Virus record (IMG/VR): IMGVR_UViG_3300029914_001571
Span: 1 to 26,368 of that record
Reading direction: 5' to 3' (one strand)
DNA from: a virus
Length of the DNA: 26,368 nucleotides
Shown here: positions 10,745 to 20,588 of the stretch, piece after piece
Numbering within the stretch: position 1 is the stretch's first letter
Layout: each line of letters opens with the position of its first letter
Program-made: the position numbers and the translations under genes
The notes under the pieces: model-generated
What the model was told of the DNA's origin: nothing
Database searches by the model: none
Seen by the model: only the letters and a program-made list of their open reading frames with translations

Positions 10745-12238
10745 ATGAGTTTAATAACACAATACAGCAGAATATCACATCACACAATTTCACCTTCAGG
10801 AACAACATTTACAGTTCCAAGTCAGGAAGATTTTACATCAACAAGTTCGCCGTGGTCAATAACCGATTTGGCATTATCTGAATTTGGTGTTAATCAATCC
10901 GACAATAAACTTTATGTCCGTATCGGTTCAAACATCAATGAAGTTGGTTTGAATATTAGTGGTGGAACTGGTGGGACATTGACAGGAACACCAAACCAAG
11001 TTGTTTATTTTGACCAAAACGGAAATCCAACATCTGATTCAGGATTTACACATTCATTTACAGGCGGGACAATGTTCTATGTTTCACCTGTTGATGCTAT
11101 TCAATACGGTTTATCAAATGGTCAATTGTTTGCAGACACTGGAACTACTGGTTCAGCATTATTTTATAATGATTCAACAGATGGAAATAACTATTCAAAT
11201 TTTGTTGCATCATTGGAAAGTATTGATTTAGGAAGTTCATTTAAAAATATTTCTGCATTAGGTTGGCAAGACCAAGGAATAAGTCAAAATCAATCACTTG
11301 TTTTAGTATCACATTTTAGTGGTTCACCAATGATTGTAATGCAATCACAACAATATACCGATACTGGATATACTACAACATATGGTGGTTTTGCTGAATT
11401 GTTTTCTGGTGGTTCACAATTCGGTTATCAATCTGGAAATACATTTGCAGGAATTCAAGTTGATAATTTGGAGGGTGTATTTATTGAGTCAACAGATAGA
11501 ATAAATATTATTTCGGCTGATATAAGTTTACTATGTTCAGGTGCTACCATAGGAAGTGGATTTACATATTCTAATTATACAGGCACAACTATATCAAATA
11601 ATCCAGATGCAGGTTCAACATTTGAACTTGTTGTTGGTGGTGAAATAGGAAATAATTCTGGAAGTGTAGCTGCTTTAAGTTATAATGACACTGTAAATAA
11701 TTATCAAAACATCATTGGTGTATTTTCAGGTAATTCAACTGGTGATGTGGGACTTCATACAAGTTTAATGGGATTTGCTAATAATAATACTGGTGATGGT
11801 GCTTTTGTTATTGCTTCAAATAACAATGGGACACCAACAGTATATTTACAAACTTCAAATCTTAGTGGTGGAACTATATCAACAATTGGTATTACTGAAG
11901 ACCAAGAAATAATAAATGTATCAAATGGAAATTATACGGGTTCGTTTGATATTGCTACTTCAGGAACATCATTAGAATTTCAACTTACATCTGGTGGAAC
12001 AACTTCAGGCTTTTATGCAATAGGTTCAACAGATAATATAAATACAGTTGCACAAATTCAATCATCTGGAACAACTTGGACGTGGGCAAATGTTGACGGT
12101 GCTTCAGGTTCAATACTTACAACCAATGGTTCAGGTCAATTATCATTTACACCCCCTGCAACAGGTCTTACAGGCTCTTATACAGTCGGGACTAATACAC
12201 TTACACTTGTGAACGGTTTAATCACTGCAATAGCTTAA
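10745..12238 (+). CDS. Tail fibre-like / adhesin protein
   Basis: A 497-aa protein dominated by Gly, Ser, Thr and Asn. The N-terminal segment (about 35-65: W-S-I-T-D-L-A-L-S-E-F-G-V-N, then N-K-L-Y-V-R-I-G) matches the start of many phage fibre proteins that describe a grid of displayed data (E-x-G-x-N ... K-L-Y-x-R). After it come many short beta strands separated by S-G-G-T and T-G-x turns, then a terminal strand (G-L-I-T-A-I-A). No enzymatic motif or auto-cleaving chaperone domain is apparent. It probably binds the host surface. It is the last gene before the reverse-strand membrane gene, and its stop shares the palindrome TTAA with that gene's stop. Confidence 0.7.
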   Translation: MSLITQYSRISHHTISPSGTTFTVPSQEDFTSTSSPWSITDLALSEFGVNQSDNKLYVRIGSNINEVGLNISGGTGGTLTGTPNQVVYFDQNGNPTSDSGFTHSFTGGTMFYVSPVDAIQYGLSNGQLFADTGTTGSALFYNDSTDGNNYSNFVASLESIDLGSSFKNISALGWQDQGISQNQSLVLVSHFSGSPMIVMQSQQYTDTGYTTTYGGFAELFSGGSQFGYQSGNTFAGIQVDNLEGVFIESTDRINIISADISLLCSGATIGSGFTYSNYTGTTISNNPDAGSTFELVVGGEIGNNSGSVAALSYNDTVNNYQNIIGVFSGNSTGDVGLHTSLMGFANNNTGDGAFVIASNNNGTPTVYLQTSNLSGGTISTIGITEDQEIINVSNGNYTGSFDIATSGTSLEFQLTSGGTTSGFYAIGSTDNINTVAQIQSSGTTWTWANVDGASGSILTTNGSGQLSFTPPATGLTGSYTVGTNTLTLVNGLITAIA

Positions 12239-13107
12239 TACCCATCATTCACAGTCCATATAATAGCTGCATCTATACATCTTTTTGGAACTTGAGTCAC
12301 TGAAGTAGCATTGCTATCAGTAAATATATAGTAACTATCCTGTGTTTCTTTAACTAGATAAAGTTTTTTTGTAGTTATAGATTGATTAGTATCAAGTGGC
12401 ATTAAAATTCCAAAAATTGTTGTGTTCCTATACGCTTTGGGTAAAATTAACTTTATTATTAATGGTTCTCCACCTGCAATATTTGCTGGCAAAAATTTAT
12501 ATACAGTGTTAGTATAAGTCATTGTTACGAAAGAAATACACATTATCCAAAATACTGCTTTAAATCCGTTTCTAAACAAAGATGAAGGCATTATTTCTTC
12601 TCTGAGAGCAAGAACATTATTTGGTAATAATAGAAACATTCTGTTTGTTCCATTGGTGAGAAATCCAATAACTGTATTAATTATTATAAGATAAACAAAG
12701 CCTTTTAAAGGCTCAGGATGTCTTTTACCATCCCCAAATAAATTATTAAGCAAAACAAATAGTATTAAGCAAAATACAATCCAAGCACAAACAAACATTA
12801 AGACTTCTAAAATTACCTTTTGAAGGAATTTATGTCTTTTTAAACTCAACCGATTTCGTAAGTTCTTTATTACTAACTGTTGTTTAATTACCAAAAACGG
12901 CAAAGAGCTTAAAAAGATAATTATAGAAAACATTCCGCCAGTCAATATATATTGAGGGTAGAGAAAGTCGAAGACAAAAATTCCTTTTGAAAAATAAAAT
13001 TCCAAGGTTATTATTAAACCTAATGTATAGAGTATCCCGCCAATATAAATGATATACTTTAAAATCTCTTTTGCATCATATTCTTCTTTATTAGTTTTTA
13101 ATTCCAT
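12235..13107 (-). CDS. Multi-pass membrane protein of unknown function (moron candidate)
   Basis: A 290-aa integral membrane protein on the strand opposite to all the virion genes around it. Hydrophobic spans lie at about 18-38, 53-75, 99-122, 136-153 and 183-200, separated by basic loops (e.g. K-N-L-R-N-R-L-S-L-K-R-H-K at 81-93). The last ~75 residues (212-290) look like a soluble domain with L-Y-L-V-K-E-T-Q-D-S-Y-Y-I-F. It interrupts the fibre-to-tape-measure gene order, shares 4 bp with the fibre gene's stop and has its own upstream region with TATATATTAA on its strand. This is typical of morons expressed from the prophage for lysogenic conversion or superinfection exclusion. That role is inferred; I do not recognise the family. 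Confidence 0.75.
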   Translation of the reverse strand: MELKTNKEEYDAKEILKYIIYIGGILYTLGLIITLEFYFSKGIFVFDFLYPQYILTGGMFSIIIFLSSLPFLVIKQQLVIKNLRNRLSLKRHKFLQKVILEVLMFVCAWIVFCLILFVLLNNLFGDGKRHPEPLKGFVYLIIINTVIGFLTNGTNRMFLLLPNNVLALREEIMPSSLFRNGFKAVFWIMCISFVTMTYTNTVYKFLPANIAGGEPLIIKLILPKAYRNTTIFGILMPLDTNQSITTKKLYLVKETQDSYYIFTDSNATSVTQVPKRCIDAAIIWTVNDGY

Positions 13108-13187: not shown

Positions 13188-15701
13188 ATGGCAGATAATG
13201 TAAATATAGAGTTAGTCATAAAGGCTGGTCAAAGCGCACAAACATTAGGTGAAATAAAGCAGTCTATAAAAGACGTTACACAAGCTTTAAAAGATACCAA
13301 AGTTGGAACTGAAGAATTCAACAAACTAAAAGAAGTATTTCAACAGAATAGGGCTAACGTTAAAGCTATGCGTCAGGAATTCGCAGACCTGAAGCAAGTT
13401 GAAACAGTCGGTAAAACATTAACTGCATCATTTGCCCTTGCATCTGGTGCAATCGGTGCGTTCACAGGAAATAGTGAAAAAGCAGAAAAAGCAGTAAGGC
13501 AGTTAGAAGGTGCTTTTGTAATGATGGAATCAGTTCAAAAGTTAGCCCGTGCGTTCCGTGAAGCTGCAATTGCAAATGAGACATTCAATAAATCACTTTT
13601 AACTAATCCTTATGTAATGGTTGCTACTGCTATTGCAGGTATTGCATTAGCTATATACGCTTTTGCAAATAGTAGTGATGATGCAGCCGAAGCAACAAAG
13701 AAATTGAATGAATCCAGTTTGAAAAATCTTCAGGATTCATTGAAAGATTTGAATGATGAACAGGAAGAAAGTAATAAAGACCTTCAACATAATATTGATT
13801 TATTAAAAGAGAAAAAAGCTACTGAAGGTGAAATATATGCAGCCACAAAGAAACAATTAGCTGAACAAAAAGACGGCGTTAAAGAACAACTTTCTTCTTT
13901 CAATGAGTTCCAGAATGCACAAATAGAAGATTATCAAAAGTCACTCGATAGACAGAAAGAATTATTGGACGGTATCAAAGAACAAGGTGCTATCTACAAG
14001 CAAAACAATGATGCTAAAGAAAAAGGTTATCAATTTGATAAGGATGCTTTGGAACAATCTGAAAGATTCATTAAGCAAGACCAAGAAGAACTTGATAAAG
14101 AACAAAAGAAAGTTGAAGAAGGGAAAAAATTATTTGAGCAAAAGCAGTTGTTATTAAACAAGCTGAAGGAAATACAACGTGTTGAAGAAAGTGCCGACAC
14201 ATCACACGTTGAAATTGGTATTGAAGAAAGAAGGAAAGAAATATTGGATGGAATAATTGAAAGAATCAAAGCAGAAAAAAAAGCTGAAGATGATTATCAA
14301 TCTTCTTTAGAACACGGTTTAGAAATGCTTAAAGCAATGGGTGGTTCAGAGAAAGAACAATTCGATTTCAAACTTGCAATGTTGGGTGAAGAACTATCAA
14401 GTGAATCCAAGTTAGAAGAAAAACAAAAGCAAAGATTTGATAAGGCTGCATCTGAACTAAAAAAGTATGGAGATAAGACCAGTGAACAATATAAGGCTGC
14501 AAAGGCTATCTATGATGCAGAAAAAGAAGCCTATGATGAGATTGCAAAGAAGGAACAAGATTTAATCAATAAGAAGCAAGTTGAAATTGAAATCAATAAG
14601 CAATTAGCACTTCACGCTAAACAAGATGCAGCCCTTAAATCTATTGAAGAAATGGATAGGGCTTATGACAGGCAAGTTGCAGCCCTGAAGAACATTACCG
14701 ATGTGATGAAGGCAAAAGGAATTGATGATGATAAAATTAATAAGCAAGAAATAAGCAACAATCAAACACTTATTTCTTCATTGATGCAACAGGAAAAAGC
14801 GGTTCAAGATAGTGTTGCAACCGATGAAGAAAAGAAAAAAGTAACCGATGAAATCAGTAAGAAAATACAAGAACTTATTGATAGGATAAATGTATTACAG
14901 GCAACAGCAAAGAAAATTGACCTCACTTCAATATTTGGCAAGGCTACCAAAGAAGTTGAAAAACTAACATCTGAAATTGGAAAAATTGCACAGGTTGTAA
15001 GCAAGGTTGAATCATTAGCTACTCAGATAGTAGCGCAAAATGTTCAAAGAAGAATTGCTTTATACGAACATCAAAACCAGATGTATGTAAAAGGCTTGGA
15101 CAATGCTTTACAGGAAGGTTTTTTAAGTCAGCAACAGTATAATCAAAAGGTTGCAGCAGCAGAGGCAGAACTAAAGAAAAAGAAACGTGAAGAAGAACAC
15201 AAAGAGTTTGTTGCAAAAAAAGCCACTGGTATAATTAACGCCACTATCCAGACAGCTTTAGCAGTGATGCAAGCTTTATCATCAACACCACCACCTGCAT
15301 CTTATGCAATGGCTGCAATAGCGGGTGTTTTGGGAGCGGTTCAGATTGCGGAAATAGCAGCCCAAAAAGAACCTGCATCTTATGCAACTGGTGGTTTAAT
15401 TGAAGGTGCGGGAACTGGAACATCTGATTCAATACTTGCCAAAGTTTCTAATGGTGAAAGTGTGGTTAATGCCAAATCAACAAAGATGTTTGCACCTCTT
15501 ATCAGTGCAATCAATCAAGTGGGTGGTGGTGTTGCTCTGAGAGGTCAACAACCTTTATCTAAATCACCTACTGGTGTTGTTCCTAATAGTTCATCAAAAG
15601 ATTCATCTGGTGGTGGACATCAAAAGGTCTATGTGAGTGAACACGACATAAGCAAAACACAAAGGAAGGTTAAGGTTATCCAGAATAGAAGCACACATTG
15701 A
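13188..15701 (+). CDS. Tail tape measure protein
   Basis: An 837-aa protein that should set tail length and pass through the tube. After the N-terminal helices, a hydrophobic segment lies at about 143-160 (V-M-V-A-T-A-I-A-G-I-A-L-A-I-Y-A-F), followed by a long, highly charged region (about 165-650) rich in Glu, Lys and Gln with coiled-coil character. A second Ala-rich hydrophobic part spans about 680-730. The C-terminal segment at about 731-765 has the tape-measure signature G-G-L-I-E-G-A-G-T-G-T-S-D-S-I followed by S-N-G-E-S-V-V-N. The 837-residue length suggests a tail longer than about 100 nm if the usual proportion holds. It lies between the moron candidate and the head genes, away from the tail chaperone-like gene. 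Confidence 0.92.
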   Translation: MADNVNIELVIKAGQSAQTLGEIKQSIKDVTQALKDTKVGTEEFNKLKEVFQQNRANVKAMRQEFADLKQVETVGKTLTASFALASGAIGAFTGNSEKAEKAVRQLEGAFVMMESVQKLARAFREAAIANETFNKSLLTNPYVMVATAIAGIALAIYAFANSSDDAAEATKKLNESSLKNLQDSLKDLNDEQEESNKDLQHNIDLLKEKKATEGEIYAATKKQLAEQKDGVKEQLSSFNEFQNAQIEDYQKSLDRQKELLDGIKEQGAIYKQNNDAKEKGYQFDKDALEQSERFIKQDQEELDKEQKKVEEGKKLFEQKQLLLNKLKEIQRVEESADTSHVEIGIEERRKEILDGIIERIKAEKKAEDDYQSSLEHGLEMLKAMGGSEKEQFDFKLAMLGEELSSESKLEEKQKQRFDKAASELKKYGDKTSEQYKAAKAIYDAEKEAYDEIAKKEQDLINKKQVEIEINKQLALHAKQDAALKSIEEMDRAYDRQVAALKNITDVMKAKGIDDDKINKQEISNNQTLISSLMQQEKAVQDSVATDEEKKKVTDEISKKIQELIDRINVLQATAKKIDLTSIFGKATKEVEKLTSEIGKIAQVVSKVESLATQIVAQNVQRRIALYEHQNQMYVKGLDNALQEGFLSQQQYNQKVAAAEAELKKKKREEEHKEFVAKKATGIINATIQTALAVMQALSSTPPPASYAMAAIAGVLGAVQIAEIAAQKEPASYATGGLIEGAGTGTSDSILAKVSNGESVVNAKSTKMFAPLISAINQVGGGVALRGQQPLSKSPTGVVPNSSSKDSSGGGHQKVYVSEHDISKTQRKVKVIQNRSTH

Positions 15702-15734: not shown

Positions 15735-16658
15735 ATGAACAAACAATTACCTATATACAAACTGGTTATTTCTTCAGATGATGATGTATCTGGTGTTAGT
15801 GCTATTGCATTGGTTGAACAACCTGCTATAGAAATAGACTTTTTTGCGTTTAAGGCTGAATCTAAAGCACAATTCCAGTTCAAAGCTATATCAACCGACA
15901 AACAACTATTGGCAGGTTATTTAATGATTCCTGACAAATTAATCTTCAGAGTTCAGGACGGGAACGAATACTATGTAACATTTGATAATAATACAATAGC
16001 AATGATTGCAGAAAAATTCAACAAGAATAAGCTGCAATCAAATTTCAACACTGAACATTCAGCAGCTAATGCACTTCAAAATGTGTTTGTCAAAGAAAAC
16101 TGGATTATAGAAAGTGCTGAATTCGATAAATCAAAAATGTATGGGTTTGAACCGATTGTTGGGGCTTGGTTTGGAATAATTAAAGTTGATGATGCAAACA
16201 TCTGGAATGAATATGTAAAGACTGGTGAAGTAAAAGGATTCAGTGTTGAAGGTAATTTTGAAATGGTCTATGACAAGATGTTTGTTGACCAGTTTAAAGC
16301 TATCCACAAGCCTATTAAGGTAGGTTTTGACTTCGATAATACATTATCTCTTATACGTGGTCAGGAACTCGCTAAAGAAGAATTAGCAAAGGGAAATGAA
16401 GTGTATATAATCACTTCAAAGGATAAGCACAAATCAAAAAATGTTTACCGTGTCGCTGCAAAATTAGGAATACCAACTTCTAATGTTCGATTCACCTATA
16501 AGGATAGAATAGTTGATGCAGTTAAAGGTTTAGGTCTATCAAAATGGTATGACAATGACCAGACACAACTTGATTTCATCAAAGCAAATTCTGGTGTTCA
16601 GGCTATCAAGTTTGAATCAATGAATCCGTTCACAAACTTCTATTACCAAAAATCATAA
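15735..16658 (+). CDS. XkdF-like prohead protease fused to a HAD-like phosphatase domain
   Basis: A 307-aa two-domain protein. The N-terminal part (about 1-190) matches the XkdF-type phage serine protease: start I-Y-K-L-V-I, then V-S-A-I-A-L-V-E-Q-P-A-I (21-32), candidate catalytic His108 (N-T-E-H-S), N-W-I-I-E-S (122-127), G-A-W-F-G-I-I-K-V and Ser170 in G-F-S-V-E-G. It should cleave the scaffold and capsid delta region during head maturation. The C-terminal part (about 193-290) is HAD-like: G-F-D-F-D-N-T-L (motif I; Asp199, Asp201), I-I-T-S (motif II; Ser228), Lys256 or Lys264 (motif III) and Y-D-N-D (motif IV; Asp273, Asp275). The fusion to a phosphatase is unusual and its target is unknown. 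It sits directly before the scaffold-like and capsid genes, in line with the protease role. Confidence 0.82.
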   Translation: MNKQLPIYKLVISSDDDVSGVSAIALVEQPAIEIDFFAFKAESKAQFQFKAISTDKQLLAGYLMIPDKLIFRVQDGNEYYVTFDNNTIAMIAEKFNKNKLQSNFNTEHSAANALQNVFVKENWIIESAEFDKSKMYGFEPIVGAWFGIIKVDDANIWNEYVKTGEVKGFSVEGNFEMVYDKMFVDQFKAIHKPIKVGFDFDNTLSLIRGQELAKEELAKGNEVYIITSKDKHKSKNVYRVAAKLGIPTSNVRFTYKDRIVDAVKGLGLSKWYDNDQTQLDFIKANSGVQAIKFESMNPFTNFYYQKS

Positions 16659-16696: not shown

Positions 16697-17236
16697 ATGA
16701 AATTAAACTTTAACATAACAACAGTCCTATCAGACGGAACACCAGTATCACTTACAAAATATGATGTTGGTGGAATTATATCAACCGTTAATTCAGACGG
16801 TTCAACAGCAGTAGCACCAGACGGGGATTATCAATTTGAAGATGGAAGTATTGCAACACAGACGGACGGTTTAATTACCGCTATTGCACCCGCACCAGAT
16901 TCAGATTCTACTTCACCTGCTTCAGACGCAAGTGATATGTCAGCACCCGCACCAGATGCACCAACTGAAGATGCACCTGCAACCGATACAGATTCAACAT
17001 CTGATTCTGATTTATCAGAGCAAATACAAGCCTTAACAGCAGCTATTTCTCAATTAACTGACTTGCTTACTTCATCAACTACTGATATGAAAAAAGAAAT
17101 AGCAACTGTCAATGATAAGTTCAATGCAGTTACAACAAAATCAATTCTTGAAACTGGTAAAGCTGAAAATAAAACTGAAACATACAATGATAAAATAAAA
17201 GACAGATTGAAATTTTTGAACGGATTCACCAACTAA
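16697..17236 (+). CDS. Capsid scaffold-like protein
   Basis: A 179-aa acidic protein in the classic scaffold position between protease and major capsid protein. The N-terminal 64 residues have a beta-rich fold with repeated turn motifs (L-S-D-G-T-P-V, A-P-D-G-D-Y-Q-F-E-D-G and T-D-G-L-I-T-A-I-A). A low-complexity Asp/Ser/Ala/Pro/Thr linker follows (65-106), then a coiled coil (about 107-145) and a basic, helical C-terminus (159-179) that ends L-K-F-L-N-G-F. Such a C-terminal helix often contacts the capsid protein in scaffolds. No enzymatic motif. Position and shape support a scaffold role, but a decoration protein remains possible. Confidence 0.65.
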   Translation: MKLNFNITTVLSDGTPVSLTKYDVGGIISTVNSDGSTAVAPDGDYQFEDGSIATQTDGLITAIAPAPDSDSTSPASDASDMSAPAPDAPTEDAPATDTDSTSDSDLSEQIQALTAAISQLTDLLTSSTTDMKKEIATVNDKFNAVTTKSILETGKAENKTETYNDKIKDRLKFLNGFTN

Positions 17237-17313: not shown

Positions 17314-18297
17314 ATGAAATCAACATCAAAAAAGAATTTACTAAACTTCAACTTTACCATTGCCGACAATACAACTTGGGTTGGTGAAGACCTTTTGGAC
17401 TTTTACGCGAATGCACTTTTGACTTTTCCAACAGCGAAAAATGTAACTGTACAACCTAACGTTAAGTCAATCATAAAACTTCCTTCTTACAACTTAGGTT
17501 CAATCTTGCAATCTGATACAGTTGCAGGTGCTACATCTTGGAATAACTCAGGTGAAGGAACACTTGCTGAAAAATCATTCAGCGTATCACCAATCAAAGT
17601 ACAATTGGAATTTCCAAAAGTTGTATTTGAAAATGACTTCTTATCTCAGTATATGAAAGCAGGTTCTAATACAGACGAAGCAGTTCCACAATTATTTGAA
17701 AGATTTATTACTCAACAAGTAATGAAACAAGTTGGTAATGACTTAGAACAAATAGCTTGGCAAGGTACTTCATTATCAGGTTCATCTTATCCATTGGAAC
17801 TTGCAACAGGTTTGATAAAAACTATGTCAGCAGATTCAACAGTTATAAAAGTTAGTTCAGTTACAGCAGTAACTTCTTCAAACGTTATAGCACTTGTTCA
17901 ATCTGCATACAATGCAATTCCATCAACTGTATTCTTGAATTATTTCAGTGACCTTAAAATGTATGTTAGCTCACAAATAGCGAGAGCTTACAGATTAGCA
18001 CAAGCTCAAACTGGTGCAGGACAAGGTTACAACTGGGCATCAAAAGATATTGATTTGAATTTCTTAAACATAGAAATGGTAGAGTGCCCAGGATTAGGAT
18101 TCAATCAAATTGTAATAGCATCTGAACAAAATATGTTATTGCTTACTGACTTAGCTGAAGATTTTGAAAAAGATACTTCACTTGCAATAATTGACCTTTG
18201 GAAAACATTAGGTATTGCATCATTAAGAATAGCATTAAGATTTAAAATCGGATTCGGTTATAAGGTAGGACAGGAAATTGTTTTGTGTGGTAACTAA
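17314..18297 (+). CDS. Major capsid protein
   Basis: A 327-aa protein, in the normal size range for HK97-fold major capsid proteins. It has an N-arm, then segments typical of the fold, including Q-P-N-V-K-S-I-I-K-L-P-S and the strand I-K-V-Q-L-E-F-P-K-V-V-F-E-N-D. A spine-like long helix follows (E-R-F-I-T-Q-Q-V-M-K-Q-V-G-N-D-L-E-Q), with the P-domain and A-domain core to the end (F-K-I-G-F-G-Y-K-V-G-Q-E-I-V-L). The ATG at 17314 follows a leader of about 35 nt after an ATATATAT motif. It comes directly after protease and scaffold-like genes and is followed by a strong hairpin, in line with high expression as a single gene. Confidence 0.9.
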   Translation: MKSTSKKNLLNFNFTIADNTTWVGEDLLDFYANALLTFPTAKNVTVQPNVKSIIKLPSYNLGSILQSDTVAGATSWNNSGEGTLAEKSFSVSPIKVQLEFPKVVFENDFLSQYMKAGSNTDEAVPQLFERFITQQVMKQVGNDLEQIAWQGTSLSGSSYPLELATGLIKTMSADSTVIKVSSVTAVTSSNVIALVQSAYNAIPSTVFLNYFSDLKMYVSSQIARAYRLAQAQTGAGQGYNWASKDIDLNFLNIEMVECPGLGFNQIVIASEQNMLLLTDLAEDFEKDTSLAIIDLWKTLGIASLRIALRFKIGFGYKVGQEIVLCGN

Positions 18298-19361: not shown

Positions 19362-20588
19362 ATGAAAATATTCGGAATGAATTTCGGTTCAACACAAAAA
19401 GTTGAACAACCAATAACACCAACACATAAAGCTGTATTAGATAATGGCTGGCAAAAGGTGATGGACACAGTAAATTTTGCTTTGCAAAATGAATATATAC
19501 CACCTACTGCATCATATATAGTTGGTGCAAATGGAATGGTTAAGTGGGGACACGATAACTTATTTCCGCTCCAATTAGCCGACTTACTTAATAGTTCACC
19601 AATGCACCAGTCCATCATAAAAATGAAATCTGATTTGGTCACTGGTTCAGGAATACAATTCAAAAATTATTCTGGTCTTACACCTGAACAACAAACTGAA
19701 CTTACAAAGTTTGTGAATGTTGCAGACGGTTGTGATAAGTCATTAAGTGATGTAGCAAGTGAACTATCCTTAGACTTTCAAATATTCGGTGCAATGGCAT
19801 TAGAAGTTATTTGGGACTTAACGTTTACCAAGATTATAAAGATTAATAGAATACCAATGGTTAACCTTCGTATGCACGAAGAAAATGCTATTGGTAAAAT
19901 TGAAAAGTTCTACTTCAATAAAAATTGGACACGACCTAATCAATACGGGACATATGAAATACCCGCATTCAATATTAGTGATAGAACAAACACCAATCAA
20001 TTATTGTACATAAAGAATCCTTCAGTTGATGGAAGATATTACGGTGTTCCTGCTTATTCAAGTGGTTTAAATTGGGTTGCAGCAGATGCAGCCATAAGCA
20101 AGTTCCACTTATCAAATATCAGTCACGGTATGGCTCCAAGTTTGAAAATACAGTTTTATAAAACTTATGATTCACCTGAACAAAGGGATGAAATAGTTAG
20201 AGGTATAGAAAGACAATACGCTTCACAACATAATGCAGGACGTGCAATGATATTTTTCAGTGATGGAAAAGATTATGCACCTTCTATTGAACCTATTCAA
20301 GTAAACAATATTGATAAGCAATTTGTGACCATAGCAAACCAAATAGTTCAGCAAATACTTCGTGCTCACAGGGGTGTTAGTGGTGTTCTATTCGGTATAT
20401 CTACATCAAATAATAAACTGTCATTACAAGGTGAATATGAAAATGCGTTCAAAATATTCACACAAATAGTTGTTGCACCCGATAGAAAGATTTTGGAAAA
20501 TGTATTGAACAAGGTTCTTAAACTAAATGGTATTGATGCAGGATTATATTTTGACCAGATTCAAATATTCAATGGAGCAATAGGATAA
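19362..20588 (+). CDS. Portal protein
   Basis: A 408-aa protein of portal size, forming the DNA channel and head-tail connector at one capsid vertex. It has features expected of phage portal proteins of the PBSX/HK97 group: an early segment with P-L-Q-L-A-D-L-L-N-S-S-P (about 67-80), S-I-I-K-M-K-S-D-L-V-T-G-S-G (84-97), and a wing-region F-Q-I-F-G-A-M-A-L-E-V-I-W. These are followed by the acidic and aromatic core with W-V-A-A-D-A-A-I-S-K-F-H and the C-terminal G-V-S-G-V-L-F-G-I-S and F-K-I-F-T-Q-I-V-V-A-P. Its location downstream of the major capsid gene is unlike the common portal-protease-capsid order. Confidence 0.85.
   Translation: MKIFGMNFGSTQKVEQPITPTHKAVLDNGWQKVMDTVNFALQNEYIPPTASYIVGANGMVKWGHDNLFPLQLADLLNSSPMHQSIIKMKSDLVTGSGIQFKNYSGLTPEQQTELTKFVNVADGCDKSLSDVASELSLDFQIFGAMALEVIWDLTFTKIIKINRIPMVNLRMHEENAIGKIEKFYFNKNWTRPNQYGTYEIPAFNISDRTNTNQLLYIKNPSVDGRYYGVPAYSSGLNWVAADAAISKFHLSNISHGMAPSLKIQFYKTYDSPEQRDEIVRGIERQYASQHNAGRAMIFFSDGKDYAPSIEPIQVNNIDKQFVTIANQIVQQILRAHRGVSGVLFGISTSNNKLSLQGEYENAFKIFTQIVVAPDRKILENVLNKVLKLNGIDAGLYFDQIQIFNGAIG

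Follow-up and report, generated by a model that had tools for sequence, protein, structure and literature searches.

The window, i.e., the whole 26,368-base IMG/VR virus sequence analyzed here, encodes a 307-amino-acid protein in which an XkdF-type head maturation protease is joined, in one uninterrupted frame, to a C-terminal HAD domain. Such XkdF-HAD fusions are not confined to the window: at least 13 further viral contigs have one, and four domain orders are represented. With moderate confidence, we favor the reading that the protein combines a protease with a nucleotidase/AphA-like HAD phosphomonoesterase that is carried into the procapsid.

The fusion gene lies in a block of late genes ordered as tape-measure-like protein, XkdF-HAD, scaffold-like protein, major capsid protein (MCP), two small genes, and portal:

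13188–15701, plus strand: tape-measure-like protein (several PHROG tape measure families, best 5.3e-13)
15735–16658, plus strand: XkdF-HAD fusion protein, 307 aa (open frame, XkdF profile, HAD profile, AlphaFold2 model)
16697–17236, plus strand: scaffold-like protein, 179 aa (by-eye likeness to the XkdF C-terminal domain in contigs L265 and L284)
17314–18297, plus strand: major capsid protein (SU10_MCP, weak; phrog_1623 virion structural protein, 1.9e-11)
19362–20588, plus strand: portal protein (phrog_33693 portal, 1e-30)

This order is matched in contigs L186, L207, L218, and L221 as far as these extend, and the window MCP is 44% identical to the L186 protein in the equivalent position. A partial match is found in Nonlabens phage P12024L, where gene 1 is an unannotated XkdF protease. 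No terminase was recognized within the 26,368-base window. Judged from its relatives, the virus probably infects a member of the Bacteroidota. The left end of the window carries an integrase-like gene (1–1236; phrog_1, 8.7e-28) followed by a sigma-factor-like gene (2119–2760; phrog_1740, 1.5e-18), which suggests that the phage is temperate and controls its own transcription. Inside the late block, a 290-aa open reading frame with several apparent transmembrane stretches runs on the minus strand (12235–13107); searches against Pfam and PHROG returned no match for it. A minus-strand open reading frame is likewise present in contigs L221 and L207, there between tape measure and protease, but it encodes a different protein. 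The capsid segment of a further 5-kb contig (L259, IMGVR_UViG_3300031524_000246) is 100% identical to that of the window over the matched part; this contig begins within the capsid gene and hence offers no protease for comparison.

Within the fusion protein, the following parts can be delimited:

15735–16268, plus strand: XkdF-type (PF14550, Peptidase_S78_2) protease domain, residues 1–178 (Pfam and PHROG profiles)
16056–16058, plus strand: candidate catalytic His108 (invariant, 176/176 XkdF relatives)
16242–16250, plus strand: candidate catalytic Ser170 with Glu172 in an S-x-E motif (Ser 176/176, Glu 175/176)
16275–16304, plus strand: linker helix, residues 181–190 (AlphaFold2/DSSP, H181–190)
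16317–16610, plus strand: HAD domain without cap (C0 type), residues 195–292 (AlphaFold2 order, family profile)
16329–16343, plus strand: HAD motif I, DFDNT, residues 199–203 (both Asp 176/176)
16413–16421, plus strand: HAD motif II, Thr227-Ser228-Lys229 (Thr or Ser 176/176)
16497–16511, plus strand: HAD motif III region, YKDRI, residues 255–259 (Lys column occupied by Ile259)
16548–16559, plus strand: HAD motif IV, YDND, residues 272–275 (Asp273 conserved 174/174)

The Pfam match to PF14550 covers residues 50–174 (E 3.4e-12, 46.9 bits versus a cut-off of 24), and residues 6–183 match phrog_24921 at 7.8e-41; phrog_3017, a head maturation protease, matches at 9.4e-7. His108 and Ser170, the catalytic candidates of the initial annotation, never vary among the 176 distinct relatives over which XkdF residues were counted and are therefore well supported in that role. 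Proteolytic activity would follow from the family to which this half belongs. The profile match above cut-off, the invariant His and Ser, and the location of the gene just ahead of scaffold-like and major capsid genes are all shared with XkdF-type head maturation proteases. The window protein differs from these at its C-terminus: it carries the HAD there, where its nearest relatives have a scaffold-like domain and further XkdFs end in a short helix or in a small module that we term SDYP.

A HAD fold for the tail, on which the initial annotation depended, is predicted by AlphaFold2 (56-row alignment; mean pLDDT 88.8, with 92–97 in most HAD blocks). The strands (E) and helices (H) of the model follow the order E195–198, H207–218, E222–227, H235–244, E251–253, H256–266, E270–273, H276–286, and E289–292, which is that of a cap-less HAD of the Rossmann-like α/β type. 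With the window protein left out of the family profile, its residues 194–290 score E 2.9e-28 (Z 100,000). A chance match of short motifs was rejected, as none of 1000 shuffled versions of the protein scored against this profile. Taken with the PF14550 match in the same frame, these data confirm the proposed union of a protease with a HAD-fold domain.

Searched alone, the HAD tail matches nothing in Pfam or NCBIfam, and profile-based annotation would therefore miss the domain; phmmer against the PDB gave chance hits only. By tblastn, the tail matches an uncultured 735-kb phage (6e-7) and, in Flavobacterium elemoviruses, free-standing genes annotated ‘HAD family hydrolase’ (35%, 4e-5). The latter (e.g., MT497068, ~34–35% identical to the tail) differ in being separate 117-aa genes, near which no terminase large subunit (TerL), portal, XkdF, or MCP was recognized with the profiles used. 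Iterative gathering of relatives yielded a family of ~100-residue HADs, whose profile finds AphA class B acid phosphatases as its five best matches, and thus best solved relatives, in the PDB (best 1.5e-4). PF06189 (5′-nucleotidase) is matched by 24 of 37 family members at E ≤ 0.01 (best 1e-6), with no hit to the window protein itself. Other members match AphA and HAD-IIB NCBIfam models, or nucleotidase or polynucleotide kinase PHROGs (polynucleotide kinase in two members), while the two main PHROGs of the family are annotated ‘unknown function’. Motifs I, II, and IV are shared with AphA and with the cytosolic 5′-nucleotidases of PF06189; compared to both, the HADs are only ~100 aa long and have no cap, and the window copy further differs in having neither an in-register motif III Lys nor a Pfam hit. 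Motif counts refer to 176 family members, with the columns of motifs III and IV readable in 174. Nucleophile and metal-binding Asp are conserved: neither Asp199 nor Asp201, the residues on whose retention in homologues the initial annotation had staked its assignment, is lost in any of the 176.

A whole-protein search of viral contigs found no relatives of the fusion; alignment-based scans did find them. A one-off fusion, as it appeared from a first XkdF scan in which none of 80 relatives carried a HAD, was overturned by HAD-based scans. In the simplest order, X-HAD (with X for XkdF), the fusion is present on ten contigs (L207, L213, L214, L218, L221, L226, L326, L340, L341, and L347), with apparent frameshifts in L340 and L226 that are possibly sequencing errors. 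The other orders are X-SDYP-HAD (L360) and, on one contig each, X-HAD-SDYP (L186) and X[HAD-SDYP]X (L228), in which HAD and SDYP interrupt XkdF behind its N-terminal segment. Further single contigs show the HAD fused ahead of an HK97-type (S78) prohead protease (L222; PF04586, 1.1e-19) or behind a portal (L144; phrog_33693, 1.2e-41). On a Bacteroidetes MAG contig (L248), XkdF and HAD are separate genes that overlap by 8 bases and lie ahead of the capsid genes. Three XkdF- or MCP-led scans gave HAD fusion frequencies of 0/80, 2/67, and 8/80. The fusion is a minority state among XkdFs, and the HAD is thus not essential for XkdF function.

Several small modules accompany these proteins. SDYP, a name coined here, denotes a ~95-aa module (YNDYPxAxxNNAKR...CGTxxGKxRAxQLA...WGGxxG) that has no Pfam match and corresponds to phrog_2859 in L115. 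Many XkdF proteases have it as their sole C-terminal tail; in others it is inserted, and it is also fused to or adjoins terminase-linked HADs (examples in L007, L016, L022, L186 8291–8966, L180 4398–5153, L115 5552–6001, and L360). At the termini of several head/packaging proteins (L180 4407–4540, L190 7869–8000, L222 4371–4510, L186 8800–8966, and L093 6345–6460), we find recurring small modules that contain cysteine (MPVIKCxNGKWRIGxGxCIYDTxEKA; ESxxEFxxRCI...AVCYAKW) and may be shared tags. In Tenacibaculum phage pT24, a like HAD follows a GP30.3 domain (gp061, L005 4536–5414; PF08010, 5.8e-45).

How often the HAD was gained was addressed with trees of both halves. On the XkdF tree, the HAD-bearing rows require four changes. 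A topology with all HAD-bearing rows in one clade was rejected (p-AU 3.9e-5), and with it one ancient XkdF-HAD fusion, so the HAD was gained on XkdF at least twice, besides the S78 and portal fusions. A clade of the window, L186, and L228 XkdFs was not rejected (p-AU 0.26), and these three could share one origin. The HAD tree, which has few columns and is weakly resolved, is consistent with this history. The nearest XkdF relatives of the window protein are found in L265 and L284, with 50% identity at best. In both (L265 2165–3253 and L284 6166–7308), as in P12024L (L002 179–1228), the protease continues into the scaffold-like domain that is a separate gene in the window.

Unfused HADs are most often located just upstream of the TerL gene. 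In scans biased toward HAD relatives, we counted 69 same-strand pairs with the HAD upstream of TerL (median gap 907 bp, 68 within 3 kb), which span 13 groups of dissimilar TerLs. A more distant HAD branch with a DDD-type motif IV occurs mostly on contigs without recognized TerL or head context. Because of its fusions to XkdF, S78, and portal and its siting upstream of TerL, we regard the HAD family as part of the head/packaging block, and the domain is probably a genuine component of the head or of packaging. The initial suggestion of such a role is thereby strengthened, with two protease families and a portal now among the fusion partners.

For the window protein, we propose that the fusion most likely serves to carry the HAD into the procapsid, which XkdF would enter together with the scaffold. 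Since sister XkdFs bear a scaffold-like domain at the position of the HAD, we infer that the latter lies on the scaffold side, inside the procapsid. At this site or at the portal vertex, it would act during maturation or packaging, taking phosphate off a nucleotide or off the terminus of a nucleic acid, and part of the copies may stay in the head. Self-cleavage may occur between XkdF and HAD. The last Met before the HAD is M182; an internal start that would give a separate HAD product is conceivable but not supported.

A phosphatase tied to a capsid maturation protease had been considered to lack an obvious standard role, yet enzyme domains on head proteins have precedent. Iyer et al. 2022 (PMC9503650) report phage proteins in which a Nudix domain is fused to MuF, to portal, or to a capsid-processing serine peptidase. 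Iyer et al. 2017 (PMC5512222) describe 2H domains linked to MuF or portal, as well as a portal with a pyrophosphatase domain. The Nudix fusions share with our case a phosphate-ester enzyme domain placed on head proteins including a capsid protease; they differ in enzyme fold, to which the HAD is unrelated, and may differ in the family of the protease. In the literature searched, which was limited in extent, we found no description of a HAD on a capsid protease. Polyvalent or MuF-type head-packaged effectors likewise have an enzyme domain on a head protein (here XkdF, S78, or portal); a MuF domain was not detected in the window protein (Pfam, E up to 1).

This parallel raises the question of whether the HAD is instead an injected or head-borne effector, possibly cleaved off XkdF, that acts in the host on targets such as nucleotide immune signals or their breakdown products, as a counterpart to the MuF- or portal-fused enzymes of polyvalent systems. 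The published nucleotide-targeting enzymes on head proteins (PMC5512222, PMC9503650) argue for such an effector, as do the nucleotidase-like affinities of the family, the shuffling of the HAD with SDYP and other small modules, and a report of the prohead protease as a CBASS activation determinant (cited in PMC12072042). Against it stands that most family members are unfused, separate small genes beside the terminase, and we consider an effector role unlikely.

The motifs of the window copy bear on whether its HAD is still an enzyme. Of the four HAD motifs recognized initially, I, II, and IV are confirmed, and the Lys of motif III is not in register: 173 of the 174 HADs readable at this column have the Lys, and the sole exception is the window protein with Ile259 (FTYKDRIV versus FTNGKDKW). 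The alignment around motif III is ungapped and in register, so that in sequence terms the Lys-to-Ile change is no alignment slip. Two residues past the motif II Thr, 175 of 176 members have Arg, and the window protein alone has Lys (Lys229). Phosphatase activity of this copy is therefore uncertain. Lys256 and Arg258 lie beside Ile259 and either could reach the site after a one-residue loop shift; the copy may accordingly be weakened or use Arg258 or Lys256 instead. Alternatively, the domain might be a structural or targeting module in this phage, its catalysis lost or incidental. That two residues, the Lys of motif III and the Arg that follows motif II, are missing in the window copy alone, and that this copy sits on a long branch (0.86), would fit such a module. 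The retention of Asp199, Asp201, Thr227, and Asp273 and the strict conservation of catalytic positions across the family count against it, and we judge such a structural or targeting role unlikely.

The siting beside TerL invites another reading, in which the HAD is a packaging-coupled nucleic-acid end phosphatase that works with the terminase and is set at the packaging vertex by the fusion. Apart from this tight placement just upstream of TerL, the portal fusion in L144 and the two members that match a polynucleotide kinase PHROG are consistent with an end phosphatase. However, no nucleic-acid-binding region was recognized, and the closest profile matches are nucleotidases and acid phosphatases. 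Terminase products already have 3′-OH and 5′-phosphate ends, so the need for such an enzyme is unclear, and we regard this assignment as improbable. Finally, a chance fusion without consequence, in which the stop between XkdF and a downstream HAD gene was lost, could start from adjoining, overlapping genes as in L248 but is very hard to reconcile with repeated independent fusions (at least twice on XkdF, and on S78 and portal) and conserved catalytic residues.

The separate genes of L248, the fusions of the window and L221, and the insertion in L228 form a natural series that lends itself to comparison. More broadly, and only tentatively, the mini-HAD nucleotidases may constitute a widespread head-associated phage family that performs a conserved, undescribed step of head maturation or packaging or acts as a first-line counter-defense against nucleotide signals. 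If the latter were true, a counter-defense HAD would ride on the very protease able to trigger nucleotide-based immunity of the host. The recurrence of the HAD at the terminase, on two head proteases, and on the portal points to a testable phosphatase step, which would belong to phage head assembly or delivery.
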